Positions 4,170-34,733 of a DNA stretch of 64,000 bases are shown in pieces. Location: positions 1-64,000 of IMG/VR virus record IMGVR_UViG_3300031469_000005. The stretch is one strand, 5' to 3'. Within the stretch, counting starts at the first letter, position 1. Every line of letters begins with the position of its first letter. This stretch comes from a virus. The position numbers and the translations under genes are program-made. Below the pieces are notes generated by a model. The model did not search any database, had not been told where the DNA came from, and saw nothing but the letters and a program-made list of their open reading frames with translations.

Positions 4170-4174
4170 CTAAC

Positions 4175-4417: not shown

Positions 4418-4420
4418 TTT

Positions 4421-4449: not shown

Positions 4450-4455
4450 CAGATC

Positions 4456-4710: not shown

Positions 4711-4762
4711 ACGATGTGAACGATCATCGGTGAATTAGCAACGACTCTCGATCAATCGAACC

Positions 4763-4792
4763 TTGTTCATTCAACCACCGATATGGTACTAT
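4763..4792 (+). promoter_or_regulatory. Leaderless promoter
   Basis: TTGTTC at 4763-4768 and TGGTACTAT at 4784-4792, then TAACGT and ATG at 4799 (6 nt). Confidence 0.6.
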
Positions 4793-4798
4793 TAACGT

Positions 4799-4981: not shown

Positions 4982-5018
4982 ACGAGCAATTCTTGCCGGA
5001 AAATTGAGGTATTACGAC

Positions 5019-5153
5019 ATGAAGCCAGGGATATTCTTTTTGTCGAGATTACGAAGGATTTCAACGAACGTTGTTAGTCATTGGTTCAAGTTCCCCTTAG
5101 AGATTGTTTTTTCGAAAAATTGTACACTTTATGATCGAATATCACCAATGTGA
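5019..5153 (+). CDS. Small basic peptide upstream of the macrodomain gene
   Basis: 44 residues (MKPGIFFLSRLRRISTNVVS then a mixed tail). GAGG lies about 10 nt before ATG. It overlaps the macrodomain start by 23 nt, so it may serve as a coupling leader. Low complexity of evidence. Confidence 0.4.
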   Translation: MKPGIFFLSRLRRISTNVVSHWFKFPLEIVFSKNCTLYDRISPM

Positions 5154-5586: not shown

Positions 5587-5905
5587 TAAAAATGATGCAA
5601 AGCGACGGAAAATCATTCGTGAGTACAAAGAAGATCTGACTCAAGCAGGAGGTGAACATTACTTTCTTTGGAGAGAAAATGTGCGACCTGGTACGCTGAT
5701 CATGAATTGTAACGATCCAAAAGTTGATTTCCTTGTCATTTCATGTGAAATTATCTATCATGAGGACTGTGATGATTCGAAGGTAAAAATTCTCGTTCTT
5801 GACATGAAGAGAAAAATAACGTTTACCTGGTACAGGTACGATCGGTATTCCATTTACGATTGGATACTTTTACAACCTTTGAATGTTTCTTCGTTGAACC
5901 TATGA
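5576..5905 (+). CDS. PGT-motif small protein
   Basis: 109 residues. A charged N-terminal helix precedes ENVRPGTLIMNCNDPKVDFL, a variant of the shared PGD motif, and a beta-rich C-terminus with YRYDRYSIYDW. ATG 5576 overlaps the macrodomain stop. Function unknown. Confidence 0.75.
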   Translation: MNFDKNDAKRRKIIREYKEDLTQAGGEHYFLWRENVRPGTLIMNCNDPKVDFLVISCEIIYHEDCDDSKVKILVLDMKRKITFTWYRYDRYSIYDWILLQPLNVSSLNL

Positions 5906-5911
5906 TATGAT
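5884..5911 (+). promoter_or_regulatory. Leaderless promoter
   Basis: TGTTTCT at 5884-5890 and TGATATGAT at 5903-5911, then CAACACC and ATG at 5919 (7 nt). Confidence 0.55.
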
Positions 5912-5918
5912 CAACACC

Positions 5919-6230
5919 ATGATTACGAAGCAATGTTTGCTTACTCGAGGATTCACGAAGTACAAGAATAACGAGGGAAGCTGGGCGGACGAATTCTACA
6001 AGTTGTGCGTTCGGAATTCAAGTAAGAATCTTTTCTTCATCGACATGAAGTACTACCGCAACGTGTCGCAGCCGTGGGCACCGAGCGCTAGAATGTACAG
6101 GAGTTCTGATTGTTCGTTCACGGTTTCCTTTGTCGTGGAAAATAGTTGGACGATCGATCGTTTGATCGCGGAGTTCACTCTGGCATACACATTGATGCAA
6201 TGCGTGCCAGACATTCACAACAATGACTGA
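5919..6230 (+). CDS. Protein of unknown function
   Basis: 103 residues from ATG 5919; an in-frame ATG at 5907 overlaps the -10 box, so the later start is preferred. Mixed alpha/beta composition, Tyr- and Trp-rich middle (KYYRNVSQPWAPSARMYRSS). No family recognised. Confidence 0.7.
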   Translation: MITKQCLLTRGFTKYKNNEGSWADEFYKLCVRNSSKNLFFIDMKYYRNVSQPWAPSARMYRSSDCSFTVSFVVENSWTIDRLIAEFTLAYTLMQCVPDIHNND

Positions 6231-6259
6231 TGTTCTTTCTTAGAAGAACGTGATACAAT
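6231..6259 (+). promoter_or_regulatory. Leaderless promoter
   Basis: TGTTCTTTC at 6231-6239 and TGATACAAT at 6251-6259, then TAATC and ATG at 6265 (5 nt). GTTC and GAAC form a dyad in the spacer. Confidence 0.65.
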
Positions 6260-6264
6260 TAATC

Positions 6265-6762
6265 ATGGGAACCAACAATATCAAAGCGTACCCTCTTGAA
6301 CGCGCCGAAGAGATTCTTAATGGTCCGATGTCGCTTGACAAAGCAATCCTGATCGCCGTCATCGGGCATGCGGGTCAGGAGGATAAGGGCGGTAACAGCT
6401 ACATTCGTCACCCGCTTCGCGTGATGGAGGAACTTGATTCTGAGGATGAAATGATCGCGGGCGTGAGTCATGACCTCGTCGAAGACACAGACATCACGCT
6501 GGAAGATTTGACCGAGGTGGGATTTTCCAACACTCACATCAAGACGATCGATGCTCTCACGAAGCGTGATGGCGAGACGTACGTTGAAAGCATCGAACGC
6601 GTCACGAAGAATCCGACCGCTCGTAAGGTCAAGACAAAGGACATCAAGGACAATTCAAAGCTTTGGCGCCTGAAGTCAAAGAAGCTCGGCCCGAAGGATC
6701 TTGAGAGGATGCAAAATTACATCGACGCTCTCGTCGTCCTGGGAGAGATCGACAAGAAGTGA
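6265..6762 (+). CDS. HD-domain hydrolase, small alarmone hydrolase (MESH1)-like
   Basis: 165 residues from ATG 6265. The metal-binding HD pattern is complete: HAGQEDKGGNSYIRHPLRV (first His and HP), GVSHDLVEDTDIT (HD and ED) and KTKDIKDNSK (distal Asp/Asn region). This arrangement, in a protein of this size without a synthetase domain, is that of MESH1/SAH enzymes that hydrolyse (p)ppGpp, or related nucleotide pyrophosphohydrolases. Leaderless promoter; the gene leads a run of three PGD-motif genes through a GTGA overlap. A phage could use it to remove the host starvation alarmone. Substrate is inference; other HD phosphohydrolase activities are possible. Confidence 0.85.
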   Translation: MGTNNIKAYPLERAEEILNGPMSLDKAILIAVIGHAGQEDKGGNSYIRHPLRVMEELDSEDEMIAGVSHDLVEDTDITLEDLTEVGFSNTHIKTIDALTKRDGETYVESIERVTKNPTARKVKTKDIKDNSKLWRLKSKKLGPKDLERMQNYIDALVVLGEIDKK

Positions 6763-7007
6763 ACATTGTACCCGGTACGTTATTGATGGTACAGACCATC
6801 AATCCAGGGAGGATTCAAGCTCAAATGCTCGACATGCGTCATAAGTTGCATGACATCAAGAGTGGAACGACGGTACTTGTTTTAAGCGTGGAAAAATGTA
6901 AAGAAAGCGTAACATTTACGTACTTCGTTAACGGTCAATTGTTTTGGAATCGGATGAATGCCGAGCATGTTGAATTCCATCACAACTTTGATTTTAAGGT
7001 TCTTTGA
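6759..7007 (+). CDS. PGT-motif small protein
   Basis: 82 residues, MNIVPGTLLMVQTINPG at the start, then beta-rich sequence ending FHHNFDFKVL. GTG start in a GTGA overlap with the HD hydrolase gene. First of three tandem relatives (6759, 7007, 7230). Function unknown. Confidence 0.75.
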   Translation: MNIVPGTLLMVQTINPGRIQAQMLDMRHKLHDIKSGTTVLVLSVEKCKESVTFTYFVNGQLFWNRMNAEHVEFHHNFDFKVL

Positions 7008-7258
7008 TGAACAAGACAAGGTTCGATCAACTCGCTCCCGGTGATCTGTTGCTTGCAACGGCGGGAATGTTATGTAAGCCGATTCAAAGTTTTGTCATTT
7101 CAAGAACGGAACTCGAGATCACAGTGTTGTGCGAGGACATGCACGTGGAATCGTGGGATCTTGACGAGATCAACGAGTCAGATATCACCAGCATCGTAGA
7201 TTCCGAATGGAAATTGATCGAGTATTCTCGTGAAGTACAACGAACTCGTTCCCGGTGA
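7007..7258 (+). CDS. PGD-motif small protein
   Basis: 83 residues, FDQLAPGDLLLATAGML near the start and an acidic middle (DLDEINESDITSIVDSE). ATG at 7007 shares one base with the preceding stop (TGATG). Second of three tandem relatives. Confidence 0.75.
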   Translation: MNKTRFDQLAPGDLLLATAGMLCKPIQSFVISRTELEITVLCEDMHVESWDLDEINESDITSIVDSEWKLIEYSREVQRTRSR

Positions 7259-7436
7259 TTGGTTGATCGAAGCGGACAATCAATTCAATAATGAACGTAC
7301 GTTAATGTGGTGCTTCGTGCTTTCACGCGTCAATGACGAGATCCGGGTAATTGATGAATGCGCAAGAATCATTCACTGGCACAGCCTTGACATGAAGGTT
7401 GACGATGGTTGGATCGTGATCAAAAATGATCGGTAG
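7230..7436 (+). CDS. PGD-motif small protein
   Basis: 68 residues, MKYNELVPGDWLIEADNQF at the start, close to the protein at 27325 (RFNELVPGDIVII). GTG start 29 nt inside the preceding gene. Third of the tandem set, likely from duplication. Confidence 0.7.
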   Translation: MKYNELVPGDWLIEADNQFNNERTLMWCFVLSRVNDEIRVIDECARIIHWHSLDMKVDDGWIVIKNDR

Positions 7437-7668
7437 CTTTGTAAAATTGTACAGGTACGGTTTTTCTCCCACGCCTGATTGGAACAAGTATCGTCTTGTT
7501 TATCCCACCGTCCCGGCTCGTAAACATCCCTCGGCAAGTTTGTTGGGGTTGATATTTGCTATTTACGAAACAAACGCTGGATTCACCGTGGGAATCATTT
7601 TCAATGGTATCGTTTGCTACGACACGCTCAAATCGTTGACAACGCTGAAACAAAACATCGTTGAATGA
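7426..7668 (+). CDS. Small protein of unknown function
   Basis: 80 residues, beta-rich (FVKLYRYGFSPTPDWNKYRL, later FTVGIIFNGIVCYDTL). Overlaps the previous gene by 11 nt with the string ATGATCGGTAG, also seen at the junction near 32732, hinting at a shared origin of the junctions. Possibly a diverged barrel family member. Confidence 0.65.
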   Translation: MIGSFVKLYRYGFSPTPDWNKYRLVYPTVPARKHPSASLLGLIFAIYETNAGFTVGIIFNGIVCYDTLKSLTTLKQNIVE

Positions 7669-7700
7669 TCTCGGCTGGAGATTGAACGAGCAATGAATGC

Positions 7701-8018
7701 ATGTGTAGAATTGATCAACTGATGAAAAAAGAAAAATTGCTTGAGTTCAATGACACCACAAAAAGAACTAAGTTCATTGAATTTCTCGAAGAATATACTT
7801 GTACCGATCTCATTGATGCGTTCAATTCAACCAAGAATCCTCAGGTAAACCTCGTTCCGTTTAAATCTTCGATCCTTAAGGAACAAACGACAATGTCACA
7901 GGAAGTTTACGATCTTTTCAAGAAAGAAATTGATTCTTGTTGGTTATTGACAATAAATGGTGAAAGCATGTTAATTTCTTCTGCAGGAGCATCAAAGTTA
8001 AAAACGTATGGTTTTTGA
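7701..8018 (+). CDS. Protein of unknown function
   Basis: 105 residues, helical N-terminal half (MKKEKLLEFNDTTKRTKFIE) and a C-terminal part with SCWLLTINGESMLISSAGAS. ATG 7701 or ATG 7722 could start it; neither has a clear ribosome binding site. More AT-rich than its neighbours. No family recognised. Confidence 0.6.
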   Translation: MCRIDQLMKKEKLLEFNDTTKRTKFIEFLEEYTCTDLIDAFNSTKNPQVNLVPFKSSILKEQTTMSQEVYDLFKKEIDSCWLLTINGESMLISSAGASKLKTYGF

Positions 8019-8205
8019 TCTTGGTCACGGTGTAACGATTGAAGATCGTTCTAAAACAGGTTTCATTATTCGTGTCAATAAAAATTTTAAAGGTGAACAA
8101 ACGTATCTTGTACGATGGGTACATCCACGAGATGCTGCGGGATCACAAGAAACTATCGTTCATTTAGCATTGTTCACGTTGTACGAAGGCCATTTTAACG
8201 TTTGA
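8008..8205 (+). CDS. Small SH3-like protein
   Basis: 65 residues: VTIEDRSKTGFIIRVNKNF then TYLVRWVHPRD, a pattern like small barrel domains (strand, turn, strand with an aromatic). Overlaps the previous gene. It directly precedes dnaE. Function unknown. Confidence 0.65.
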   Translation: MVFDLGHGVTIEDRSKTGFIIRVNKNFKGEQTYLVRWVHPRDAAGSQETIVHLALFTLYEGHFNV

Positions 8206-8228
8206 ATTTCCGGTTGGGGAAGAAAAAT

Positions 8229-10548
8229 ATGTCTAAGAAAGATATTGACGACCCGTCTGTGAGAATTCCACGCAAATTTGCTGGACTTCATTCTCACGAC
8301 GGGTCGTCCTAGTGCTGCCTTTGATGGGCTTGGTTCACCCTCAGACCACATTGCATGGTGTAAGGAGAATGGTTTAGATGCTTGGGCCGCAACTAATCAT
8401 GGGCAAATGAATTCGTATGCGAACGCCGCATTGTACGTTGAAAAGCTCAACAAGGGTGGCGATAATTTCAAATTTATTCCTGGCTGCGAGCTCTACATCC
8501 ATCCCGATCTCGAACAATGGAAGAAGGATTACGAGCTCGACAAGACAACGAAAGCTGATGAAAAGGAGAAAAAGAAACAAGCGAAGAAGGAGCTTGAAAA
8601 GATCAAGACATTGATCGATGTTGAGCAAGATCCGAATGGAGAAGTCATTGAAATGACGAACTCTCTGACGATTGAGAACGAGGATGAGAGCAAAGGTTCA
8701 ACGAAGTTCTTTAAACCAGTTAATAGACGTCACCATCTCGTTGTCCTTCCAAAGAACTCAAACGGTCTTCTCGATCTTTTCAAGCTCGTATCGGTTGGAT
8801 ACTTGGATGGCTTTTACAGATTCCCTCGAATCGATTTCAAGGCTTTGAAGGAGGCTGGAAAGAAAGGAAATCTGATAGCAAGTTCAGCCTGCTTGGCGGG
8901 TCCGATGTCATGGGAGACACTGAGAGTATGTCAAGAAGTCGAATTTGACAAACTTAATGCGACGATTTTGAACGATGCAACGCTGCTTGATCGTGCTGTG
9001 AAAAACGTCGGTCTGATTCATGAACGTCTCATCGATTGTTTGGGGGAAGAGAATGCATTCTTGGAGATCCAGTTCAATCGATTGGGCGCACAGGATCTAG
9101 TGAATCGTGCTATCATCGAGTACGCAAGACGAAGCAATTTTACGAAGCAATTGATCGTAACATGTGACAGTCACTATCCTCGTCCCGAAAGTTGGCTTAT
9201 TCGCGAAGTGTACAAAAAATTGGGATGGATGAAGTATCAAGACTTCACGCCCGATATGCTTCCAAAGTCTCGCGAAGAGCTGAAATGTGAATTGTACCCG
9301 AAGAACGCGACCCAAGTTTGGGAGGAGTACCAAAATTCTAAAGTTCGTGAAGGTAACGAGTTCTACGATGATACCGAGATCTTTGATGCAATCGAGAGGA
9401 CGCATGATATCGCTCATAACGTGATCGGTGATGTGAAGCTCGATAAGACCCCCAGGTATCCCACGAAGATCGTCCCCGTGGATACGACGGCATTCAAGAT
9501 GTTGACAAAGTTGACGATTGAAGGCCTTCGACAAAAAAAGCTCGACAAGAACAAAGAATATGTAGATCGTCTCAAATTCGAACTCGGTGTTATCAAGCAA
9601 ATGGATAATGCGGCATACTTCGTCACGTTGTCGAAGATGCTGAGCCTTGCTCGAGATGTGGTACTTCTCGGTGTTGCGAGAGGTTCATGCGGTGGCAGTT
9701 TGGTTTGTTACCTTTGTTCTATCACGGATCTCGATCCCATCAAGTATAAGTGTCGTTTTGATCGCTTTATGAATCCTCACCGCGTGGGCCTTCCGGATGC
9801 TGATATCGATGTTTCAGATCGTGATAAAGTTCTAGATGTTTTTCGAAAGGAATTTGGATTCAACAACGTTTTGCCAATTTCGAACGTGAACGTTTTCAAG
9901 ATCAAATCACTTTTGAAAGATCTTTCCAAATTCAATGGTGTTCCATTCGATGAAGCGAATGAAGCGACGCGAACTGTTGAACAGGAGGTTAGAAAGGCGA
10001 CGCATGAAGCTGGAGCCGACAAGAATCTCTTTGTTTTGACGTACGATGATGCGATGAAACACAGTCCTTCTTTTTTGGCATTCATTGAAAAATATCCCGC
10101 GGTTGGTGAACACATGAAAAGCCTCTTCAAGGAACAAAAATCGCTTGGAAGGCACGCGGGTGGTGTGATCATTTTAGATGATGCGGCTTCACAGATTCCA
10201 ATCATAACGTCGAAAGGAGAACCTCAAATGCCTTTCGGGGAGGGGGTGGCACAGAAAACCTGCGAACCATTAGGTTACATTAAGTACGACATTCTAGGTT
10301 TGGAAACTATGAGATTGATCGAACGAACGATATCTCTTATCATCTCACAAAAACTTGGAAAATTGATCCAACTCGAGTTCGATGATGACAATAAAATTGA
10401 ACTTTACGAAAATGAAGAGGTAAAATTAACAACGGGTGAATTCATTCGAGCAAAAGATCTCAATGAGAATCACGATGTCATGATACCTTTCGTAAAAAAT
10501 GGAACGTCCTTACCTTCAACAGAGAACAAAGTACTGGTTTCACACTAA
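8229..10548 (+). CDS. dnaE: DNA polymerase III alpha subunit (DnaE-like), N-terminal piece, with +1 frameshift
   Basis: ATG 8229 has GGGGAAG 10 nt upstream and encodes a start typical of the PHP domain (FAGLHSHDGSS), but that frame meets TAG at 8310. Reading on needs a +1 shift to give SAAFDGLGSPSDH, which continues the PHP domain to 10548. Later come the polymerase catalytic aspartates (GLPDADIDVSDRDK) and SLGRHAGGVII, then YIKYDILGLETMRLIERT, where the intact protein would continue into the piece encoded at 21391. Instead the frame adds about 65 residues with a Hint-like stretch (LTTGEFIRAKDLNENHD) and stops inside the homing endonuclease gene. The start codon at 8278 (TTG) would lack PHP residues. 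Replicative polymerase of the phage. Whether the shift is programmed or a sequence error is open. Confidence 0.88.
8301..8313 (+). other. Apparent +1 frameshift site in dnaE
   Basis: GGG TCG TCC TAG T: a stop codon after TCC, with GGG three bases before TCC. The layout resembles the prfB +1 site (Shine-Dalgarno-like run, slippery codon, stop). Moving +1 at TCC/TAG joins HDGSS to SAAFDGLG. There is no homopolymer at the site. Confidence 0.5.
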
Positions 10549-12322
10549 ATGTGGAAACTTTCGTCTCACTCAAGAAGGTATAGATTTCTTTAGTGAGTTG
10601 CCTAAACTCACTGGTCCACATCCCATACCATCTAGTTGTCCGATTTGTGGAGCAATTCCTCGACAAGGGAAGAATCCTCTTTTAGCTTTGTCGATACATT
10701 TTGCCCGCTTGCATTCTACGGATAAAAGTCAACTAACAATTGCTTCACATTTCAACGGGATCAAACCTGTTTGCAAAGTATGTTCGGCGGACGTGATTCA
10801 TCGTGGTGTGACACATGGATTTAAGATCTTGTGTGAACAATGCGATGATCTTCGTGTCGTTGCAAACACAGCCAAGAAACGAAAATTGAAACACGAAGTT
10901 GCGTGGAACAAAGGTCTCACTCAAGAAACTTCTGATTCCGTCAAGCGAGGAACGATCAATTGTTCAAAAACGTTGACAAAATTCGGAGCGTGGAGCAAAG
11001 ACCTTTCTCTTAAAAAGAATCCTGACAATGAAAGTCTTCAAAAACTTTCTAAGAATACATCAATCGGATTGAAAAAATTCTATGAAACGAACGAATCATG
11101 GTGCACGGGTCTCACGAAGGAAAATAGTGAGATCATTCGTAATCGTGGTCAAAAAATTCATGAAGCATTCGTACGAATCCCCTTAAAAGAACGATTCAGT
11201 GAAAATGGTCGTCGTAATCTGCAAAGTAGCATGCGCCGTGTTCAATTGCTTCAAGCGGAAAAACAAAAAATTCCAATTGAGACGATCATTGAACGAATCA
11301 ATTCAATCAATCATAATTGGACACCTTGTTTTTCGATTGACACAAAAACATTCAAACCAATCTGGTCAATTTGGGCCGGAGAACTTCGAGAATATCAATG
11401 TGTCCATTGCAAACAAGTCTACAAAAACGGCTCGAATGTTTTCATTGGCTGGGATGGTGAAGGAAAGAAATGTCCGTGTCAAAAAACCGGAAATTCAAGG
11501 GCTGAATTCGAAATCGAAGATTTTTTGAAATTACATGAATTGAACGTAAGTAGAAATAATCGATCGGTGATCTCTCCTTGGGAACTAGATTTCATCATTC
11601 CCGAAAAGAAGTTAGCCGTCGAATTCAATGGATTGTATTTTCACAGCGAGATAAAGAAAGCGAATACGATCTGGTATCATGAAAATAAACGCAATATGTG
11701 CGTCAAAAACGATTATTCGTTGTTTCACATTTATGAAGATGAATGGAATAATAAACGCGACATTGTCAAATCAATGATCCTTCAAAAACTTGGTCATGTT
11801 CAACGAAAACTTCACGCTCGTAAATGTGAAATTTTTGAATATCAAGAACCTGGTGAACTTCGATCATGGTTTGATACGAATCATATTGATGGTTACGTGA
11901 ATTCGGAATACGCTTTCGTGTTGAAGGAAAATGATGAAATTGTATTCGCTGTTCTACTTCGTAAACCATTTCATCAAAGAACTTACGGTGACAAAACGAT
12001 TGAAATTGCACGATTTGCATCAATACTGAATTCGAACGTTCGAGGCGCGTTCATGAAATTAATGAATCAAATCAAGCTTTGGTGTTTCAAGAATGGTTTT
12101 GGTAGAATTCTTTCGTATCATGATAACCGATTCGGTGGCTCGGGTGATTGTTATAAACGTGCAGGGATGACATTGCTTCGTACAAGTGGTATTTCATGGT
12201 GGTGGACAAATTATCGTGAACGTGTGAATCGTTTTGAATTCAAAAATAAACAATCTGCCGCGAATGAAGGTTACTATAAAATTGGGGGATGTTCGAACGA
12301 AGTGTACGTGCTTGATTTGTGA
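10499..12322 (+). CDS. Homing endonuclease, Vsr-like (EDxHD) family, inserted in dnaE
   Basis: 607 residues. Zinc-finger-like pairs appear early (CPICGAIPRQ, CKVCSADV, CEQC) and mid (CVHCKQVY, CPCQ). Around residues 345-450 is the nuclease core: SRAEFEIEDFL, PWELDFIIPEKKLAVEFNGL, then FHIYEDEWNNKRDIV, matching the Vsr-like free-standing homing endonucleases of phages. The C-terminal part (RFASILNSNVRGAFMKLM, ISWWWTNY) is the usual DNA-binding extension of that family. The gene is AT-rich relative to its surroundings and begins inside the tail of the first dnaE piece in another frame. It likely cuts an uninterrupted dnaE allele and drives its own spread. Start ATG 10499 is the first available in frame. 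Confidence 0.88.
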   Translation: MERPYLQQRTKYWFHTKCGNFRLTQEGIDFFSELPKLTGPHPIPSSCPICGAIPRQGKNPLLALSIHFARLHSTDKSQLTIASHFNGIKPVCKVCSADVIHRGVTHGFKILCEQCDDLRVVANTAKKRKLKHEVAWNKGLTQETSDSVKRGTINCSKTLTKFGAWSKDLSLKKNPDNESLQKLSKNTSIGLKKFYETNESWCTGLTKENSEIIRNRGQKIHEAFVRIPLKERFSENGRRNLQSSMRRVQLLQAEKQKIPIETIIERINSINHNWTPCFSIDTKTFKPIWSIWAGELREYQCVHCKQVYKNGSNVFIGWDGEGKKCPCQKTGNSRAEFEIEDFLKLHELNVSRNNRSVISPWELDFIIPEKKLAVEFNGLYFHSEIKKANTIWYHENKRNMCVKNDYSLFHIYEDEWNNKRDIVKSMILQKLGHVQRKLHARKCEIFEYQEPGELRSWFDTNHIDGYVNSEYAFVLKENDEIVFAVLLRKPFHQRTYGDKTIEIARFASILNSNVRGAFMKLMNQIKLWCFKNGFGRILSYHDNRFGGSGDCYKRAGMTLLRTSGISWWWTNYRERVNRFEFKNKQSAANEGYYKIGGCSNEVYVLDL

Positions 12323-12392
12323 AATCAAAGAAACGATGCTAGAAAAGTATCGACGAGATGTACGTTATCGACAATTTTAATACGGTAATGGT

Positions 12393-12698
12393 ATGACACA
12401 TTATGTTTATACGTCAAAAAAACCACATGGATACATTGAGGGTGTAGGTGGTGTCGTAAATGGAAACGTGTTTTATCAAACGGTCGATGAGGTTTTAGAT
12501 AATCTTGATCGAGGTGAACGATATTACGTTTCAACACGTATCGGAGAACCGTTGGTTGAAATTCACCCAATGCAAAACGGGCCATTAACGGAAGTTCATC
12601 AAAAACAATTGGGAAGGATTCATCCCGAACGTTCAATTCGAAGTGACGCTGATATAACATCACATAACAATCTTGACAATCTTCCAGAATGTCCTTGA
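12393..12698 (+). CDS. DUF3892-like protein
   Basis: 101 residues. A possible DUF3892 core (YIEGVGGVVNGNVFYQTVDE, then GERYYVSTRIGEPLVEI) and the characteristic ending NNLDNLPECP. The function of DUF3892 is unknown; members occur in phages and bacteria. No ribosome binding site is evident. The 70 nt between the endonuclease and this gene hold nothing else. Confidence 0.7.
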   Translation: MTHYVYTSKKPHGYIEGVGGVVNGNVFYQTVDEVLDNLDRGERYYVSTRIGEPLVEIHPMQNGPLTEVHQKQLGRIHPERSIRSDADITSHNNLDNLPECP

Positions 12699-13162
12699 TC
12701 ATGACAGACATCTCTGAATACGAGTCAACGTACGCTTCGTCATTTCCTCAACTTCCTACGATGCGAAAGCTTTGGCATTCGGATTACTGGGACGGCCCAA
12801 TTAACGGGTTGTGCATAGTGAACGATGAAAAGTGTTGGTACGAGATGATTGAAGAGAATTCTGATAGTGGTCATGACGTTCCCGATGAACCATTACCTTG
12901 GTACCGTCGATACCTCGTCTGGAAATTGACTGATGAACAACTTAATTACGTTGAAGTTCGTCATGAGAAGTTTCGCAGAATGGTAGGAACTCACAGTGAT
13001 TACGTTTATGACGAGAATGATGCCTGTTCAAGAGGAAAGTACCAGCCCAACGGTGAATTAACGAGCCAATACTACGAGGAGGCAAGGATCGAAGCTGATC
13101 TTGAAAAGCCATTGAACATCTCGCCTGCAGTTGAACGTATCATCGGATGGCATGAAACGTGA
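12689..13162 (+). CDS. Protein of unknown function
   Basis: 157 residues, acidic and aromatic-rich (LWHSDYWDGPINGLCIVNDE, LPWYRRYLVWKLTDEQ). ATG 12689 overlaps the previous stop; ATG 12701 is an alternative. The WDGPINGL segment near the start suggests a compact fold, but I recognise no family. Confidence 0.7.
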   Translation: MSLIMTDISEYESTYASSFPQLPTMRKLWHSDYWDGPINGLCIVNDEKCWYEMIEENSDSGHDVPDEPLPWYRRYLVWKLTDEQLNYVEVRHEKFRRMVGTHSDYVYDENDACSRGKYQPNGELTSQYYEEARIEADLEKPLNISPAVERIIGWHET

Positions 13163-13174
13163 TAATTACGAATC

Positions 13175-13303
13175 ATGAAGATCACCCTAAAACAATTGAA
13201 AGATATCATAAAGGAAACAATGGAACGAAACAATTACAAGCCAAATGATCTTTACTGGTTCTCGTTTCCCGATACACCCGAAGAATTGTCGATTTGTCGA
13301 TAA
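13175..13303 (+). CDS. Short protein with LxxLxxIIxE N-terminal helix
   Basis: 42 residues, MKITLKQLKDIIKETMERNN then a short aromatic segment. The first 16 residues match an N-terminal amphipathic helix seen on several larger proteins here (20201, 34742, 35053, 35757, 38966). Too short for other inference. Confidence 0.5.
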   Translation: MKITLKQLKDIIKETMERNNYKPNDLYWFSFPDTPEELSICR

Positions 13304-13339
13304 GATGATTTTTTAGTGTCGTAAAATTTTCAGGAGATT

Positions 13340-13753
13340 ATGAATAGATTTTTGCTGCCTGTTTTATTGATTTCGTTTGCTTGTTCAAGCGAACATGAAC
13401 AATTATTTTGTTCACCTGACGACGGAACGTACGTCGTAAAATTCACCGAAGTTTCGGGTGACTGTAACATGAAATTGAATGGTGACATTGTCGATGAACG
13501 ATTCACGATTGATGGAAAAAATTTAATTAATCCGATGTCGTCTGAAAACTGTGTGAATGATCTTCACCTCGAAGGTTGTGTAATTGTGGGTGATGTCATT
13601 TGTGACATTATGGCTCGTAATGGAACGAACATTCACGTTGAATCGAACATTGATTTCGATACCCGGGGAGAAGGAACTCAAGAATCAAGCGTTGAATTCG
13701 ATTCAGAACCTTTTTGTTCATCGAAGTACTCTACAATCATTATTCAAGAGTGA
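13340..13753 (+). CDS. Lipoprotein
   Basis: 137 residues. Signal peptide with lipobox (FLLPVLLISFACSS; Cys at 15), so lipid-anchored after export, implying a Gram-negative-type envelope target. The mature part is rich in beta and has several Cys. AGGAG lies 5 nt before ATG. Phage lipoproteins of this kind often act in superinfection exclusion or lysis; no specific family recognised. Confidence 0.8.
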   Translation: MNRFLLPVLLISFACSSEHEQLFCSPDDGTYVVKFTEVSGDCNMKLNGDIVDERFTIDGKNLINPMSSENCVNDLHLEGCVIVGDVICDIMARNGTNIHVESNIDFDTRGEGTQESSVEFDSEPFCSSKYSTIIIQE

Positions 13754-13754
13754 T

Positions 13755-13783
13755 GTGTTCTCAACATGATTTCATGTTATGAT
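13755..13783 (+). promoter_or_regulatory. Leaderless promoter of the RNA ligase gene
   Basis: GTGTTC at 13755-13760 and TGTTATGAT at 13775-13783, then TGAAC and ATG at 13789 (5 nt). Confidence 0.65.
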
Positions 13784-13788
13784 TGAAC

Positions 13789-14806
13789 ATGACAGATTTT
13801 CACGTGGATATCGTTCGTCTAGGAAAGATTGAAAATCATCCCAACGCTGATCTTCTCGAGATCACGAATGTGCACGGCGGTTATCCGTGTATCCTGAAAA
13901 AGGGTTCCTTTAAGGAAGGGGATCTCGCAGTTTACATCCCGATAGACACGACGCTACCCGACGTTCCAGAATTCTCGTTCCTTTCGAGCGGGGATCGTCG
14001 CAGGTTGAAAGCAAAGAAGCTTCGCGGAATTTTTTCCATGGGTCTTGTCATTCCCGTCCCAACCACGCTGGGGTCTCTCGAAGAGGGAACCGACGTCGCT
14101 GAGTTGCTCAATATCAAGAAGTTCGATCCAGTTATTGCCCACCCAAAGGTCACTGGTGGTGACTGTGAAGCCGATCCAGAAGGATGGACGTTTCAGAAGT
14201 ACACTGACATCGAACCGCTTCGGCGTAACGGAAACGTTCTCGTTGATGATGAGGAGGTGATCCTCACTGAGAAGGTTCATGGATCGAATTATCGAGTTGT
14301 TCATGATGGTACACGTCTTTGGGTTGGATCGCGTACGCAAATCAAGAAACGACCCGATGTGATCAACGAACAAACACCCGTCTGGTGGAGAATCGCTGAT
14401 CGTTACGATCTTGAGACAAAGCTCGCATCGTATCCGAAGTTGATCTTTTTTTGGCGAGGTATACGGTCCGGGAGTTCAAGACTTGAAGTACTCGTGCAAT
14501 GATCAATCACTGCGTATCTTTGATGTCTTAGACGTTTCAACGGGTAGATACCTCGATTATGATTCCGCAAAAGCGATCGCTGATGATCTGAAGCTCGAAT
14601 GGGTTCCAATCTTGTACCGAGGATCTTGGAAACGTGATGAATTGCTTTCTCTTTGTGAAGGAAAGACGACGATTGGTAAAGGCGATCATTGCCGTGAGGG
14701 GTTCGTTGTTCGCCCAACAACCGAACGTTGGGATCGTCGAGTAGGTCGTGTGGTTCTCAAGATGGTGGGTTCAGATTACCTTTTGAGAAAGTCTGACAAG
14801 TCATGA
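13789..14806 (+). CDS. RNA ligase (DraRnl/Rnl5-like), frame broken in a T7 run
   Basis: The first frame (to 14502) has an N-terminal OB-like domain (HPNADLLEITNV, GDLAVYIPIDTTLP) and ligase motif I TEKVHGSN with the nucleotidyl-accepting Lys. At 14446-14452 there are seven T; with six, the frame would read FFGEVYGPGVQDLKYS, the conserved ligase motif, and continue as NDQSLRIFDVLDV and EGFVVRP (motif IV) to 14806. So the gene is one ligase of about 335 residues with one extra base. N-terminal OB plus this core is the DraRnl/Rnl5 type, which seals nicked RNA. It could repair tRNA or mRNA cut by host anti-phage nucleases. The indel may be a sequencing error, polymerase slippage or a true mutation. 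Confidence 0.85.
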
Positions 14807-15113
14807 ACGGTCGATTCAAGGATCTCTTTGAAAAAAAGCATTCAATCAATCGTCGATTGGGTTCGTTCGATACGAAAAGAAAGAACTTGATGAACACATC
14901 GATACAACTTTGTTGTTCAAGTCTTGCACGAAGAAACGTCGATACGAAGCATTCGGTGAGGCTTTCGTGAAAGCCCTTCAGTACGAACAGGTCGTGTACG
15001 ACTGTGATATTTGTAACGCATTTCATCTTGCAAGTTGTGATAAACAACGTTTCGAGCGTTTTGTTAAGAACGTTAATAAATACACGTCATTGATTCCTCT
15101 GGTGGATCGTTGA
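14803..15113 (+). CDS. Small protein, apparently frameshifted
   Basis: ATG 14803 (ATGA overlap with the ligase stop) opens MNGRFKDLFEKKHSINRR, and a different frame from about 14871 to 15113 encodes KKELDEHID and CTKKRRYEAFGEAFVKALQ with good coding character (later YDCDICNAFHLASC). A -1 shift near the A-run at 14875-14878 joins them to about 103 residues. Function unknown; two CxxC-like pairs could bind zinc. Confidence 0.5.
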
Positions 15114-15380: not shown

Positions 15381-16538
15381 ATGTCAAAAATGGCAAAGAA
15401 GAAGGTAACGAACGTGGAATCGCCTCGAGATCGCAAGAATCGTCTTGCACGTGAACGGCGGGCAGCAAAGAAGGGTACCGTTGCAAATGCAAAGCCCGTT
15501 TCTTCGCCTTCCAGCATCGTCAAAAAGAAGGTGACTCGTGTGGGATTCGTTCTCGATCGTAGCGGATCGATGCAAGCAATTCTTCCCGCTGCAATTCGTT
15601 CCTTGAATGAGAACGTCGACGTCATCAAGAAGAGTGCCACCGAAACGGGGCAAAGTGCTACCATTTCATTGATGGTGTTCGATTCTGAGACTGAGGTCAA
15701 ATTCTTGAATCGTAGCACTGACAATTATGTGAACGTTGCTGAGAATTCGATTCGTTCGCAAGGTATGACGGCGTTGCTTGATGCCACGGGAGAAATGATC
15801 AACTTGCTCAGAGCGGAACCTGTATCCGACGATGAGGACGTTGCATACCTTCTATTCGTGATCACCGACGGTCAGGAGAACCAATCTCGTAAGTACACTG
15901 CAACATCGCTGAAGACTCTCATGAAGGAAGTTCAAGGAACTGATCGTTGGACGTTGACGTTCCTTGTTCCAGTTGGTGACGCGAAGGCATTGATCAACAA
16001 TTTCGGTATCCCCGAAGGAAACGTTGCTGAATGGGAGGCATCCAGGCACGGCGTTGAAACGTACACCGCTCAGAACAATGCGGGTCTTCGTAACTACATG
16101 TCTAGTCGTGCTGTTGGTACGAACAGCGTGAAGACGTTCTACACGGATCTTTCGAAGGTGACGTTGAAGGATGTTTCTCAGCTGAAGGATGTATCCAACC
16201 TCACAACGTTGTTGACGGTTCCTCAGGATGCGAACATTCGTGAATTCATCGAATCGCAAGGTAAAACCTTCATCAAGGGCGCGGCATTCTACCAGCTCGT
16301 TCCCGGAAAGAGGGAGGCCGACAAGGTCCAGAACTACAAGGAGGTTCTTATCTTTGATAAGCGATCGAACAAGGTCTTCGGTGGCGATGACGCCAGGCAA
16401 GTTCTAGGGCTGCCATTGAACGAGATGAAGATTCGTCCAGGTAACCATGGCAACTTTGATATCTTCGTTCAAAGTACTAGCGTCAACCGTAAGGTGAAGG
16501 CGGGAACGAAGGTCATTTTCATGCCTTCCGCAGTCTAA
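15381..16538 (+). CDS. von Willebrand factor A (VWA) domain protein
   Basis: 385 residues. A Lys/Arg-rich N-terminus (1-50) precedes a VWA domain: MIDAS motif DRSGSM at 59-64, the Thr of SQGMTALLDAT and the Asp of FVITDGQEN. The last 130 residues form a separate domain (ADKVQNYKEVLIFDKRSNKV, KVKAGTKVIFMPSAV). VWA proteins bind partners through the metal site. MoxR ATPases (53161) and a metallopeptidase-VWA (56805) elsewhere in the window suggest a shared chaperone-like system. The gene is followed by a large inverted repeat. Confidence 0.85.
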   Translation: MSKMAKKKVTNVESPRDRKNRLARERRAAKKGTVANAKPVSSPSSIVKKKVTRVGFVLDRSGSMQAILPAAIRSLNENVDVIKKSATETGQSATISLMVFDSETEVKFLNRSTDNYVNVAENSIRSQGMTALLDATGEMINLLRAEPVSDDEDVAYLLFVITDGQENQSRKYTATSLKTLMKEVQGTDRWTLTFLVPVGDAKALINNFGIPEGNVAEWEASRHGVETYTAQNNAGLRNYMSSRAVGTNSVKTFYTDLSKVTLKDVSQLKDVSNLTTLLTVPQDANIREFIESQGKTFIKGAAFYQLVPGKREADKVQNYKEVLIFDKRSNKVFGGDDARQVLGLPLNEMKIRPGNHGNFDIFVQSTSVNRKVKAGTKVIFMPSAV

Positions 16539-21142: not shown

Positions 21143-21394
21143 ATGTTCAAACCGGGTGACGTTTGTCTTGTCATACAAGATTGGAGTTGTTTTCCTTTGC
21201 CGGGAGAGCAATTGGTTGACAGGATCGTAAGGAAGAACGATTTGTGTCTTGTCATTCAACACGATTCCAAGATCGTAGCACGAAATGAATTCAGCGATAT
21301 CAACGTTCTCGTTCTCATAAAGGGTCGTTTGGGTCGAATGAATGCTCGGGCAATCGCTCGTTACACGTTGGTCAGACAAGTTAGTAAGATTTGA
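21143..21394 (+). CDS. PGD-motif small protein
   Basis: 83 residues, MFKPGDVCLVIQDWSCFPLP then a second similar strand pair (NDLCLVIQHDSKIV). Two copies of xDxCLVIQ suggest an internal repeat. TTGA overlap with the next dnaE piece. Confidence 0.75.
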   Translation: MFKPGDVCLVIQDWSCFPLPGEQLVDRIVRKNDLCLVIQHDSKIVARNEFSDINVLVLIKGRLGRMNARAIARYTLVRQVSKI

Positions 21395-22314
21395 ACGTGG
21401 CTAAACTGAAATCAAGGTCGGTCGTATCATCATCACCTTCCTTTCAGGAAGTGAAGAAATGGTATCATGACAATCTGCACCCCGATGCAAACAATTACGA
21501 TGATCCGAACGTGTATAAATACGTATACCACGAATCTCGCTTCGCAGGTATCTTTCAATGCACCTCGAGCGGTGCTCAAAAGTTCTTCGTAAGGGGGAAA
21601 CCTGAATCAATTACGGACATCGCCGCGCTAACTTCAATATATCGCCCGGGGCCGCTTTCTGCGAAAGTTGATCGCATATATCTTGACGCAAAGAACGGAA
21701 AGAAGTTCGAGTGGGGTCACCCCATCTTTGAAGAGGTTCTGGGTGATACGTACAACGCTTTGGTGTTTCAGGAATCCGTGATGGATCTTGCGGAAAAGGT
21801 CGGTGGTTTTCCTAAGGATCAGTGCGACAACGTTCGAAGGGCGATCATGAAACGTGATCATTCGAAGGGAGCCGCCGCGATCAAGGAAATGAAGGACATG
21901 GAGGAAGCCTTCGTAAAGGGTGCGATGGCGAAAGGTATCAAGGAAGAAACCGCAAAGAGAAGTTACGAGACGATTTGTTTCATGAGCGGTTACGGCTTCA
22001 ACAGATGTGTATCATTTCAACAACTTATAAACATTTACGGTGTCACCGGTCAAAAAGATGGAACCAAGAAACTCAAAGATGTCAAACCGGGAGATCTCGT
22101 TCTATCTCGTGACGAAAAAATAAAGAAGAACGTTCTCGTCAAGGTTAAAAAAGTCCATTTTAATGGAACGAAACCACTTGTTCGGGTTACATTGAAATCT
22201 GGAGAAGTAATCGAGTGTACGAGGGATCACAAGTTCAGGGTGAAGGAAACGGGACAGATGCTCCCACTTCACGAGATAATCGACCGACAACTTTCGATCG
22301 TGGTATCTTCTTAG
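21391..22314 (+). CDS. dnaE: DnaE middle piece fused to N-half of a split intein
   Basis: 307 residues. Residues about 16-205 continue the polymerase begun at 8229: FAGIFQCTSSGAQ, TSIYRPGPLSAK, VFQESVMDLAEK and FMSGYGFNR, the fingers region. At residue 206 an intein begins with Cys (CVSFQQLINIYGVTG), has a Hint-type KPGDLVLSRD and block B (GEVIECTRDHKFRV, with TRDH), and ends at a stop after about 102 residues. So the product is an extein plus intein-N fragment that should splice in trans to the piece at 23389. TTG 21391 or GTG 21397 is the start; the former overlaps the preceding stop (TTGA). Confidence 0.9.
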   Translation: MNVAKLKSRSVVSSSPSFQEVKKWYHDNLHPDANNYDDPNVYKYVYHESRFAGIFQCTSSGAQKFFVRGKPESITDIAALTSIYRPGPLSAKVDRIYLDAKNGKKFEWGHPIFEEVLGDTYNALVFQESVMDLAEKVGGFPKDQCDNVRRAIMKRDHSKGAAAIKEMKDMEEAFVKGAMAKGIKEETAKRSYETICFMSGYGFNRCVSFQQLINIYGVTGQKDGTKKLKDVKPGDLVLSRDEKIKKNVLVKVKKVHFNGTKPLVRVTLKSGEVIECTRDHKFRVKETGQMLPLHEIIDRQLSIVVSS

Positions 22315-23499
22315 AGTGAACTATGACATTTCTCAAAACAAGATTTACAAAAAAGATTGGTAAAAATAATCAATCTTACAAAAAAGTGATCAGCGAATAT
22401 TCGTGCGACTTTTGTAAATCATCGTTTGAACGTGGTGGTAAAGAAAATTCAAAGTATAGATACTGTGACAAATCTTGTCAAGATCAATCACGATGTAGAG
22501 GAACTTCTACGGGTGATGCGACAAGACTGAAAATTTCAAAAGCAGCAAACGAAAGATTTAATGATCCCATAAGGGGGTCATTACTTCGTGAAAAGCATTC
22601 GATTTCTATCAAGTTGGCACATCAAAATGATCCCACGATCGGTAAAAGATCCAAACAAACTTGTATTTTACGACACGGAAAATCGGCGTTGCAATTGGCA
22701 CGTAAATCATTTGTAGAAAAATATAATGTTTCCTCGCCTGGGTGTTTAAACCACGTTAAAGAAATTGCACGTGCCAATATGAAATCACTTCATTCTTCCG
22801 GGAGGCTAAAACAAGCTTTCATTGATTCAATGGGAGTTGATAATCCGTGGAAATCTCGTGTCGTTCAAGAAAAATGCAAAAAAACTTCTTTTGAACGTTT
22901 TGGAGTTCCAAATAGTTTCATGCTTGATGAAACAAAAAAGAATTCTCATTCGAAGGAATCAATGCAAAAACGACATCAAACAATGAAGAAAAATGGAACA
23001 TACCATACTTCGAATGCAGAGGAATTCATGTATGCAATTTTGTTGAATAATTATCAACACGTTGTTCGCCAACATAAATTTCCAATCGGAGGATTAAGCG
23101 ATTTTTACATTTCTTCGATTCAAACATATGTTCAGGTTGACGGTGATTATTGGCATGGATTTAATCGAACCATTGAAGAAGTTGAATTATTTGTTACTCC
23201 CCGTGATCGACAAATTTTTGTCACTATGAACAACGATTTGAAGCAAAATGAATTCTTCGCTTCAAGACAAACTGATTTTTGTTTATTTCGAATTTCAGAG
23301 TCAATCATAGTAAAAATGAAAGATCAACTAGAACAGATTACAATTGCTGGCATCGAAAATGCGAAACTTCTGGGATTGAATAAAATTTATGTCTAATATT
23401 CTCTCAGTTGAAGAAATTGGAAATCATGAAACTTGTGATCTTGAAGTTGATCATTGTGATCACCAGTTTTATCTCGCTAATGGTATTCTAACATCGAAC
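22006..23499 (+). mobile_element. Split intein with embedded homing endonuclease in dnaE
   Basis: Intein-N (22006-22311), free-standing endonuclease (22323-23396) and intein-C (23389-23499) together interrupt DnaE exactly between GYGFNR and SHATAYA, a strongly conserved polymerase motif. First residue Cys, last residue Asn (GILTSN), next extein residue Ser. The usual penultimate His is replaced by Ser. Such fractured genes with split inteins were described from marine metagenomes. The segment is AT-rich. Confidence 0.88.
22323..23396 (+). CDS. Homing endonuclease inside the split intein
   Basis: 357 residues. Zinc-finger-like start (YSCDFCKSSFERGGKE, YCDKSCQD), then repeated modules of the type SFVEKYNVSSPG and TSFERFGVPNSF that resemble DNA-binding repeats, then a nuclease core in the last 140 residues (GGLSDFYISSIQTYVQVDGD, YWHGF, RDRQIFVTMNNDLKQNEFF). 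It shares this layout with the protein at 31051-31932 (YVQFDGVYWHGLDRP), so they are paralogues, probably in the PD-(D/E)XK/Vsr-like superfamily. Lies between the intein halves with 8 nt before and 8 nt overlap after. No metal-ligand set can be proved here. Confidence 0.82.
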   Translation: MTFLKTRFTKKIGKNNQSYKKVISEYSCDFCKSSFERGGKENSKYRYCDKSCQDQSRCRGTSTGDATRLKISKAANERFNDPIRGSLLREKHSISIKLAHQNDPTIGKRSKQTCILRHGKSALQLARKSFVEKYNVSSPGCLNHVKEIARANMKSLHSSGRLKQAFIDSMGVDNPWKSRVVQEKCKKTSFERFGVPNSFMLDETKKNSHSKESMQKRHQTMKKNGTYHTSNAEEFMYAILLNNYQHVVRQHKFPIGGLSDFYISSIQTYVQVDGDYWHGFNRTIEEVELFVTPRDRQIFVTMNNDLKQNEFFASRQTDFCLFRISESIIVKMKDQLEQITIAGIENAKLLGLNKIYV

Positions 23500-24429
23500 A
23501 GCCATGCCACGGCTTACGCTATTGATTCATATATGTGTTCCTGGCTCATGTACCATCACGAGACTCAATGGCTCACGGCTTACCTCGAATCAATGTCGGG
23601 TAACGACGATTCTCGTGCTAAGGCATTCGCTGAGGTTCGTGCAATGGGTTACGACATCGTTCCTATCGATATCATGCATGCAACCTCAGGTTGGACGGTT
23701 CTCCCCGGAAAAAAATTAATGCCAGCGCTGACGACCGCGAAAGGCGTTGGTGGTACTGCCGCAGAGGAATTGCAATCGCTTCGTCCGTTCGATTCATTCG
23801 AAGAATTGTTATGGGATGAGAATGGCACATGGCGTCTCGGCAAGTTCAATAAGCGCGCTCTCGAGGCGTTGATAAACGTCGAAGCCTTCAATAGCTTGGA
23901 TTGTGTAGGACCGGGAAAGTTGTTTGACAACTATAAACAAATGGGAATGATCGTGATCGATAGGATCAACGACATCAAGAAGACGACGAGGAAGGATCCT
24001 CATCTTGGAAGGAAACGTTTCTACGAACTTCTCCAAGAAACCCGAGGCGTGGAACCTTACACGAAGCTCGAACGCATCTTGCGAAGCATCAAACATTTCG
24101 GTACTGCGGACGTGAACATGATCATCTCCGAGGAGATGAAAAAAGGCTTGGCAAACATGGGTATCAAGTCGATCGACGAGTACGAAGAAAAGGGAACGTA
24201 CTGGTTTTGCATCGCTGAAACAACGCCCAAGCAATCGAAGACGGGGAAGAAGTACCTGATGTTGAAGGTACAGGGGCCGTCTGGAAAGACGTACAAGATG
24301 TTCATGTGGGGCTGGAACGGTACGAAGAAGTTCGATAAGTACGCTCTCATTGGAGCTGAGATCAGCAATGATCCAGAATTTGGTTTTTCGACATCAATGT
24401 TCAAAATGCGTGAACTTGACGACGGTTGA
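23389..24429 (+). CDS. dnaE: C-half of split intein fused to DnaE C-terminal piece
   Basis: 346 residues. Residues 1-37 are intein-C (EEIGNHETCDLEVDHCDHQF then YLANGILTSN), very like the gp41-1 type C-inteins. SHATAYAIDSYMCSW starts the extein, which goes on as the DnaE C-terminus: DIVPIDIMHATSGW, LTTAKGVGGTAAEELQS and LEALINVEAFNSL (helix-hairpin-helix area), then an OB-like domain (TYWFCIAETTPKQSKTGKKY). Together with the pieces at 8229 and 21391 this rebuilds a full family C polymerase. ATG 23389 overlaps the endonuclease stop. Confidence 0.9.
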   Translation: MSNILSVEEIGNHETCDLEVDHCDHQFYLANGILTSNSHATAYAIDSYMCSWLMYHHETQWLTAYLESMSGNDDSRAKAFAEVRAMGYDIVPIDIMHATSGWTVLPGKKLMPALTTAKGVGGTAAEELQSLRPFDSFEELLWDENGTWRLGKFNKRALEALINVEAFNSLDCVGPGKLFDNYKQMGMIVIDRINDIKKTTRKDPHLGRKRFYELLQETRGVEPYTKLERILRSIKHFGTADVNMIISEEMKKGLANMGIKSIDEYEEKGTYWFCIAETTPKQSKTGKKYLMLKVQGPSGKTYKMFMWGWNGTKKFDKYALIGAEISNDPEFGFSTSMFKMRELDDG

Positions 24430-33148: not shown

Positions 33149-33757
33149 ATGATTGATGCACGAATACCCTGGCCACGTCTTTGGATGAACATCGCTCACC
33201 AGATCGCGAATGCAAGATCGCTCGACCCACGACTAAAGGTGGGGTGTATTATCGTTCCCGAAGATAACACACGAATTCTGGCTATGGGTTACAATGGTAA
33301 GGCAAAAGGAGAAAGTAATGAACCAGACAGTTTAGAACCTGGACAATCGGGAATGGTTCACGCTGAGCAGAATTCATTGATAAAACTTGATTTTAATGAT
33401 CATAAAAGAAAAATCATGTATGTTACAACGGAACCTTGTTTAATATGTTCACGCATGATTATTAATGCTGGTATTACCACAGTAGTTTATGATAAATCAT
33501 ATCGTGATCATTCTGGTTTATTTTTGTTAAAAAAATCTGGAATTAATGTGTTTCAGATTAATGAAATGAATTCGATTCAACCAAAATTTAATGCGTTTTC
33601 TTCTGATATCGGAAATAAATGTTGTGAATATGTAGATCATGATCGCAAAGAGAAAAAATTGCAAACGAATTTCTTTAGAAGAAATCGAATACACAAATTT
33701 TTTACAACCACAATCAAGCAAATTATTACGACAATTTCATTTCAATCAAAAACTTGA
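33149..33757 (+). CDS. dCMP deaminase
   Basis: 202 residues. HAEQNSLIKL with His71/Glu73 and TEPCLICSRMIINAGI with Cys97/Cys100 form the zinc site; MGYNGKAKGE is the substrate loop. It makes dUMP from dCMP for thymidylate synthesis. From about 33370 the codon use turns strongly AT-rich, and after VFQINEMN (near residue 140) the frame runs on with unrelated basic sequence overlapping the next gene. The natural C-terminus is therefore unclear and may have been replaced when the adjacent endonuclease gene arrived. Confidence 0.88.
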   Translation: MIDARIPWPRLWMNIAHQIANARSLDPRLKVGCIIVPEDNTRILAMGYNGKAKGESNEPDSLEPGQSGMVHAEQNSLIKLDFNDHKRKIMYVTTEPCLICSRMIINAGITTVVYDKSYRDHSGLFLLKKSGINVFQINEMNSIQPKFNAFSSDIGNKCCEYVDHDRKEKKLQTNFFRRNRIHKFFTTTIKQIITTISFQSKT

Positions 33758-34733
33758 TCATATACCTTCGTGCATTATTACAGGTTTACCTGCACATTTT
33801 TGTTCTCATAAAAATAAATACGAAGTTGTTTGTAGTGAACTTTTTACTGAATTTGTTAAACATGACCCCCATATAAACGTTGATCCGTTAAAATGGTTAA
33901 ATTTGTTCATATCGGGTGCGACCGTCTATGAACTTCGTATTTTAAAAAAACAACGTTTTTTTCATCGATTTCGTAATTTTTTTCAGAATTGTCATACGAA
34001 ATCTGAATTCATTGCTAGATTAGTTGAAAAAGAGTATTTATTACATGCGGCGGAAGCTCTTGTGGGGGATTTCGATTCAAAAATTTGGACAACGATTTTA
34101 TCGTTTGTAGAACGATTTAATACGTCAACAAGACACGTTAAAAATAATTCGATTCAATGGTTTGTTTTACGAGGTTATTCCGAAATTGAAGCTAAGCAAA
34201 AATTAGCTGTTTTCTGTAATGTTTGGTCAAGAATTGTAAAACCAAAAATTGAAAATGATAAACAAGAAATGGAACGCTGGATTGAAAGTAGAATGCATGG
34301 AATGCGTGCACAAAATCATTCTTCAAAAATTGAAAATCTTTTAGTGGAAGAACTTTCAAAGAAATTTTTAGTCAAAAAACAACTAATGATTAAATTTACA
34401 GAAAAACCTTCAAAATTTGATGAAATCAAAAATAAAGGTCGATTTGTTGTCGATATGCTGGTAAATGATACTCATTTAATTGAGTACTATGGCAGTTATT
34501 GGCATTTTGATATTTTTAGACGAAAATCGAATGCTACGCTTGAAGAATATTCTGCTCAAATTAAAAGGTTAAAATTTTTACATGAAATTTCACAATACAA
34601 CATTATCGTATTGTGGGAACATGATTTTCAAAATATTGAAACTACGTTAAAAACTATCGAAAATTTCATTTCGAATGGGAAAGAATTTAATTCCATTCAA
34701 CAAATTGATCATAAAATTTATAACGAACTCTAG
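33639..34733 (+). CDS. Homing endonuclease-like protein, Vsr-like core
   Basis: 364 residues. The last third carries a nuclease-like core: SSKIENLLVEELSKKF, RFVVDMLVNDTHLIEYYGSY with WHF, then RLKFLHEISQYNIIVLWE with HDF, as in Vsr-like endonucleases (D...E...H patterns). Earlier parts include CSHKNKYEVVCSELF. Very AT-rich, begins inside the 3' end of the dCMP deaminase gene. Likely a mobile gene that spread by cutting the deaminase locus. Start could be later than ATG 33639. Confidence 0.72.
   Translation: MIAKRKNCKRISLEEIEYTNFLQPQSSKLLRQFHFNQKLDHIPSCIITGLPAHFCSHKNKYEVVCSELFTEFVKHDPHINVDPLKWLNLFISGATVYELRILKKQRFFHRFRNFFQNCHTKSEFIARLVEKEYLLHAAEALVGDFDSKIWTTILSFVERFNTSTRHVKNNSIQWFVLRGYSEIEAKQKLAVFCNVWSRIVKPKIENDKQEMERWIESRMHGMRAQNHSSKIENLLVEELSKKFLVKKQLMIKFTEKPSKFDEIKNKGRFVVDMLVNDTHLIEYYGSYWHFDIFRRKSNATLEEYSAQIKRLKFLHEISQYNIIVLWEHDFQNIETTLKTIENFISNGKEFNSIQQIDHKIYNEL

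Follow-up and report, generated by a model that had tools for sequence, protein, structure and literature searches.

A phage replicative polymerase DnaE encoded in three pieces, with a predicted split intein at one break and a second break that lacks splicing signals

We analysed the first 64,000 bases (the window) of the IMG/VR virus sequence IMGVR_UViG_3300031469_000005, a partial phage genome of 113 kb (112,886 bases) in which the gene for the replicative DNA polymerase DnaE is interrupted twice. The polymerase of this phage (a virus of bacteria) is encoded as three separate polypeptides: piece 1 carries the PHP and palm domains, piece 2 the fingers followed by the N-terminal half of an intein (IntN), and piece 3 begins with the C-terminal intein half (IntC) and continues into the tail of DnaE (Table 1). 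The three pieces tile the PRK05673 model without loss (residues 23-600, 573-752 and 752-1019, respectively), so that DnaE is complete, though fragmented. All three catalytic Asp regions are present in piece 1 (PDADID, KYDILGL), which is 60% identical to its counterpart in L001, while piece 2 is 64-66% identical to those of L001 and L004 (L- and G-numbers denote the loci and records compared in the analysis, the relatives being mostly IMG/VR virus contigs). A second intact DnaE in the genome was rejected, since palm (piece 1) and fingers each gave a single match in genome-wide searches. An earlier note on this DNA, made from the letters alone, had described a polymerase in two parts encoded by separate genes; the genes are indeed separate, but they number three and not two because of a second, non-splicing break upstream, the N-terminal 690 residues (8278-10353) belonging to a gene of their own at 8278-10548.

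Table 1. Features of the interrupted dnaE gene in the window (aa, amino acids; ORF, open reading frame)
Feature	Position	Strand	Remarks
DnaE piece 1 (extein)	8278-10356	+	PHP and palm; TTG start; Pfam PHP 7e-18, DNA_pol3_alpha 1.4e-46
Tail of piece 1	10357-10548	+	Candidate Hint-like half domain (KLIQLEFDDDNKIELYENEEVKLTTGEFIRAKDLNENHDVMIPF...) without Cys1 or block A; YENE in place of TxxH; stop 10546-10548
Homing endonuclease gene at break 1	10499-12322	+	Exact start uncertain; PHROG 3339 9e-56
Head of piece 2	21391-21432	+	(MN)VAKLKSRSVVSS; like the first strand of IntC, without terminal Asn; start TTG 21391 or GTG 21397
DnaE piece 2 (extein)	21433-22005	+	Fingers, last residues GYGFNR; Pfam DNA_pol3_finger 1e-32
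IntN	22006-22314	+	102 aa, coding 22006-22311 (CVSF...IVVSS), stop TAG 22312-22314; Cys1, VKPGDLVLS, TRDH block B
Free-standing homing endonuclease ORF	22323-23396	+	357 aa; Vsr-like core VDGDYWH; PHROG 3339 2.5e-11
IntC	23389-23499	+	37 aa, MSNILSVEE...NGILTSN (DLEVDHCDHQFYLANGILTSN); start overlaps endonuclease stop by 8 nucleotides
DnaE piece 3 (extein)	23500-24429	+	Ser+1; remainder of fingers, HhH and C-terminal region; Pfam HHH_6 3e-8

At the downstream break the fingers run in frame from GYGFNR into IntN, and DnaE resumes with SHATAYA directly after IntC. The two intein halves share one reading frame, whereas the free-standing endonuclease ORF between them is in another. The order of IntN, endonuclease and IntC between these two motifs, as proposed in the earlier note, is confirmed by coordinates, frames and profile matches. 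The signals expected of a class-1 intein are all intact, namely Cys1, block A, block B with TxxH (TRDH), the terminal Asn and Ser+1 (LTSN/SHA at 23499/23500). Comparison with split-intein families, which the note had suggested, returned the Npu DnaE intein as the first match of IntN plus IntC in the PDB (E 1e-11), with gp41-1 next, and IntN scores 27.5 bits against the NCBIfam model intein_Nterm (TIGR01445), above its cut-off of 24.5. When a profile built from four phage inteins is used against the PDB, E for the Npu DnaE intein is about 1e-19. The NCBIfam models PRK09532 and PRK07373, which describe the halves of the split cyanobacterial enzyme, fit both pieces along with their intein portions. 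At the level of sequence, the intein match is far above chance. The penultimate residue of the intein is Ser and not His, as the note had pointed out, but this is nothing odd: cyanobacterial DnaE inteins carry Ser or Ala at this position (PMC5874633), and Ser is therefore ordinary here.

The family matched by the intervening ORF, PHROG 3339, is annotated 'homing endonuclease'. The same ORF is 29% identical to a second endonuclease of its own genome (31051-31932, - strand). That second ORF is endonuclease-like and matches PHROG homing endonucleases, and a further endonuclease-like ORF (33639-34733, + strand) has no family match.

Relatives were found first with piece 2 (81 relatives) and then by a search with IntC plus extein (about 30 distinct contigs). 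Among the first 81 the site is empty in nearly all, including L004 at 66% identity, and the same intein was seen at the same site in a first group of four phages (the window, L001, L013 and L083), with the IntC plus extein of the window 60-74% identical to those of the other three. About 30 IMG/VR contigs carry an intein at this site, in several arrangements: contiguous mini-inteins (L190, L192 and L208), split inteins with adjacent halves and no endonuclease (six contigs: L178, L188, L193, L195, L196 and L209), split inteins whose halves flank an endonuclease gene (17 distinct contigs and L001, all with one endonuclease family), and halves separated by 3.5-4.7 kb of DNA that holds other genes (L201 and L203). 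In the listed homologous sites the intein always ends in TSN or VSN before SH, and its first residue is Ser in 19 and Cys in four of 23 contigs. The endonuclease of the window is unrelated to the family that normally occupies the site (compared with 18 contigs), so that in the window lineage the endonuclease was exchanged and the intein retained. Inteins are more alike than exteins (mean identity 55% versus 41% over 23 contigs; 56% versus 29% for the window and L187) and therefore appear to have spread horizontally, as expected of a mobile element. A scan of a genome collection with three phage IntN sequences gave no matches. The profile matches, the intact splicing residues and the roughly 30 homologous loci, empty sites included, uphold the earlier view of a fractured-gene-like split intein with endonuclease in a phage DnaE.

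Related phages take the fragmentation of DnaE to extremes. In L013 (3938-13046) the protein is in four pieces with three different split inteins, at the palm (GPGRG/C) and in the fingers (GVFQ/C) and at GYGFNK/C, the halves of each enclosing an endonuclease gene. In L174 (1330-9122 of IMGVR_UViG_3300037010_002844, 309 kb) it is in at least six pieces, with four split inteins (three complete pairs preceded by a single IntC at the palm), the non-splicing break described below, and endonuclease genes in the gaps. Two side observations concern other genes. In a phage with multiply split DnaE (L170, the record of L083), a RecA/UvsX-like gene is split too, with a C-terminal intein half before TTPGGKALKH. 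Contiguous inteins with a similar C-terminal motif were also found in very large proteins (L211-L228), some with two or three inteins; these proteins are possibly RNA polymerase subunits of jumbo phages.

The upstream break (break 1) separates piece 1 from piece 2. Piece 1 leaves the DnaE sequence after SLIISQKLG and continues for about 45 conserved tail residues to a stop; an endonuclease gene lies at the break, and between it and piece 2 are 9 kb of other genes. The tails are missing in uninterrupted homologues and show no splicing signals: with Cys1 and block A missing from the tails and Asn from the heads, splicing of break 1 by known chemistry is impossible. An ordinary intein at this position was rejected for want of Cys1, block A and the terminal Asn, as was RNA splicing, there being no Rfam family above threshold anywhere in the window. 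The same linker is broken in L276, L284, L240, L174 and L250, and break 1 is not present in 137 of the 146 distinct palm/linker sequences examined. The break-1 endonuclease family occurs at the same place in L276 and L284 (31-33% identity), and L240 is a compact form, in which the first DnaE part, the endonuclease and the second DnaE part follow directly in succession.

All five of these further phages have similar tails at the same position of DnaE, and the window, L276 and L284 have tails that are homologous to one another (z 13, 8 and 5.5). AlphaFold2 predicts confident small beta folds for the tails, with a predicted local distance difference test score of about 84 over the first 50 aa in the window. 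Inteins make up 13 of the 16 top matches when the model of the window tail is compared with the PDB by Foldseek, and 18 of 25 in a PDB fold search with a second tail model, none being individually significant. Fold matches among viral models include pieces of phage ribonucleotide reductase, topoisomerase and PhoH, and by profile NrdJ-1 and Sonic hedgehog rank second and third for the tails. On the other side of the break, the head of piece 2 lies within the best 1.5% of ORF starts by a matrix of the IntC first strand, and the joint resemblance of five heads to that strand has a P value of about 5e-4 (Fisher). A chance likeness of tail and intein is no longer favoured, because L276, L284 and L240 showed the same tail. 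We infer from these profiles and models that tail and head may together be half a Hint domain, divided at the usual position of an intein endonuclease and forming a docking unit. The second break suggests phages that use a half-intein as glue and not as a splicer; as far as we know, and within the literature searched, such a role of a half-Hint in endonuclease-split enzymes would be new.

Considered as a whole, it is likely that pieces 2 and 3 are trans-spliced by a split intein of the DnaE kind, that this intein belongs to a homing cassette, and that piece 1 is docked. On pieces 2 and 3, class-1 halves of the cyanobacterial DnaE kind would associate and trans-splice to give ...GYGFNR-SHATAYA..., a step that the sequence makes very probable. 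A dead intein, with pieces 2 and 3 associating without splicing, might be entertained because the same gene already holds a break unable to splice and Cys1 is the minority residue at the site; it is nonetheless improbable, as Cys1, TRDH, the terminal Asn and Ser+1 are intact and conserved, where a dead intein would drift. Even less credit is due to the view that this is simply a contiguous intein carrying an endonuclease domain, with a reading frame broken by sequencing or assembly errors. The common frame of IntN and IntC, and the contiguous forms known at the site, would suit such an origin, but it is contradicted by an endonuclease with its own start and stop in the other frame, by the three-ORF layout of about 18 further contigs with another endonuclease and by the six that are split without any. 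The endonuclease between the halves would copy the entire cassette into intein-free dnaE, and homing of this kind seems probable to us, the empty sites and the incongruence of inteins and exteins being consistent with it; in the lineage of the window the usual endonuclease family of the site would have been replaced by another. A second endonuclease insertion would have separated piece 1 from piece 2, with no splicing there, and the tail of piece 1 (putatively half a Hint domain) and the head of piece 2 (one strand) would dock non-covalently, as in Aeh1 NrdA. We give non-covalent docking even chances.

For break 1 the chief competitor is a plain fission made by an endonuclease, with tails that do not derive from an intein and a Hint likeness that is a coincidence of small beta domains. 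T-even phages provide known cases of such fission (PMC2988022), and we regard this as a real possibility, if the less favoured one. Several results weigh on its side or otherwise against our interpretation. All structural matches of the tails have E of at least 0.5 against the PDB and at least 0.02 against viral models; the link of the tails to the second half of IntN by hhalign profile is modest (P 1.6e-4, probability 50%); the window tail alone, compared with a general intein profile without the related tails, is not significant (E 0.94); and the tails of L250 and L174 bear no clear sequence relation to the others. The Vsr-like core of the endonuclease is likewise sub-threshold (Pfam Vsr and TIGR00632, both E 8e-4 and below cut-off), break 1 is supported at its right-hand junction (21.4 kb) by one contig, and no terminase was found in the 113-kb partial genome; genes for terminase and portal were read from the proteins of L004 (record G002), a relative that is syntenic with it. 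Against plain fission stand the two separate models that return mostly inteins, the ranks of NrdJ-1 and Sonic hedgehog, and heads that resemble the first strands of IntC. An assembly artefact at break 1 would fit the lack of counterparts near dnaE in relatives for the genes at 12.3-21.4 kb; this is highly improbable, however, as contig L237 is an exact repeat (100% identical) of window positions 2998-14837 and five further phages are broken at the same linker.

Apart from dnaE, the window holds a gene for an ATP-dependent phosphoenolpyruvate carboxykinase (60182-61753, + strand; Pfam PEPCK_ATP 2e-157), unusual in a virus, together with a MoxR-like AAA ATPase (53161-54336, - strand), a protein with a VWA-like C-terminal part (56805-58127, + strand) and a separate VWA-like protein (15381-16538).

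The cyanobacterial DnaE split intein is a workhorse of protein engineering, and to our knowledge no relatives have so far illustrated how its splitting arose. A tree built from 20 IntN sequences unites the phage inteins and places the cyanobacterial DnaE split inteins next to them (support 84/85); support is moderate and branches are long, the cyanobacterial IntN sequences were obtained by a search with the Npu sequence, the tree also contains gp41-1, NrdJ-1 and IMPDH-1, and of its sequences that of Npu was checked against the PDB. With this moderate support, the closest relatives of the phage intein appear to be the cyanobacterial DnaE split inteins (Npu, Ssp). The two are alike in sequence kind, in the lengths of the halves (102 and 36-37 aa), in the protein interrupted and in the fingers segment; the cyanobacterial site (FAEY/C) lies four residues upstream of the phage site (GYGFNR/S). 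They differ in that the cyanobacterial halves are at distant loci with no endonuclease gene between them. A single phage dnaE site displays all states, from empty through contiguous, split, and split with endonuclease to halves kilobases apart, and offers a stock of natural Ser1 and Cys1 split inteins of the DnaE type.

Dassa et al. 2009 (NAR 37:2560) reportedly described fractured genes, in which the two halves of a split intein, separated by a free-standing endonuclease gene, interrupt a conserved enzyme gene. By its sequence, the split intein of the window is of this fractured-gene kind and related to the cyanobacterial DnaE intein; it resembles the genes of Dassa et al. 2009 in interrupting a conserved gene and in the free-standing endonuclease ORF that separates its halves. 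Its host gene, a phage DnaE, may set it apart from them, and it differs in the second, non-splicing break of that gene and in an endonuclease unlike the family usual at its site.

For break 1 the nearest known systems are enzymes split by endonucleases. Friedrich 2007 and Crona 2011 (NAR 39:1381) are said to have found the parts of NrdA of phage Aeh1 joined without splicing through tails created by the MobE insertion. Non-splicing assembly of endonuclease-split enzymes is known, both for NrdA split by MobE (Crona 2011, as cited in PMC3267527) and with fissions in T-even phages (PMC2988022). Like DnaE here, NrdA is an essential gene broken by an endonuclease insertion, with assembly by insertion-born tails; the gene is a different one.

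The T4 topoisomerase, with gp39 and gp60 split at mobA (PMC2988022), bears a closer likeness. Chain 8yo3_C of this enzyme, whose sequence entry is gp39-gp60, ranked fourth in the fold search with the window tail (28% identity); because the location of the match within the chain was not given, sequence evidence also bears on the link. Unsplit homologues match only query residues 1-66 and lack the gp39 tail, and this tail has a profile like that of the DnaE tails (P 1.1e-4, probability 57%). The gp39 tail gave no match to the intein-N profile directly (P 0.33), nor significance against single intein sequences (120 of 1000 shuffles). Phages AC4, SJ_PmiM, NP4 and 50AhydR13PP have an endonuclease gene between the two topoisomerase parts, and in Aeromonas phages G2 (L482) and avDM6 (L483) the large subunit is unsplit with an uninterrupted insertion (SGDFYRNGDLVVAENDEMIVNGKWVQTRDIITGNDW...) that resembles the gp39 tail together with the gp60 head. 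A gp39-like topoisomerase with a related tail was also seen in Campylobacter phage IBB_35 (L481, 1121-2632), followed by thymidylate kinase and dUTPase genes and no endonuclease. The T4 proteins thus resemble the pieces of DnaE in having a DnaE-like tail on gp39 and a head strand on gp60, and differ in the gene and in tails without a direct match to the intein-N profile. We tentatively propose, at somewhat short of even odds, a common non-splicing device in which a half-Hint, with the endonuclease at the position of intein endonucleases, keeps two polypeptides joined through strand complementation. Break 1 of DnaE in six phages and T4 gp39/gp60 would share this device, some Aeromonas phages would have it in contiguous form, and, if real, it would explain how endonuclease-split enzymes assemble.
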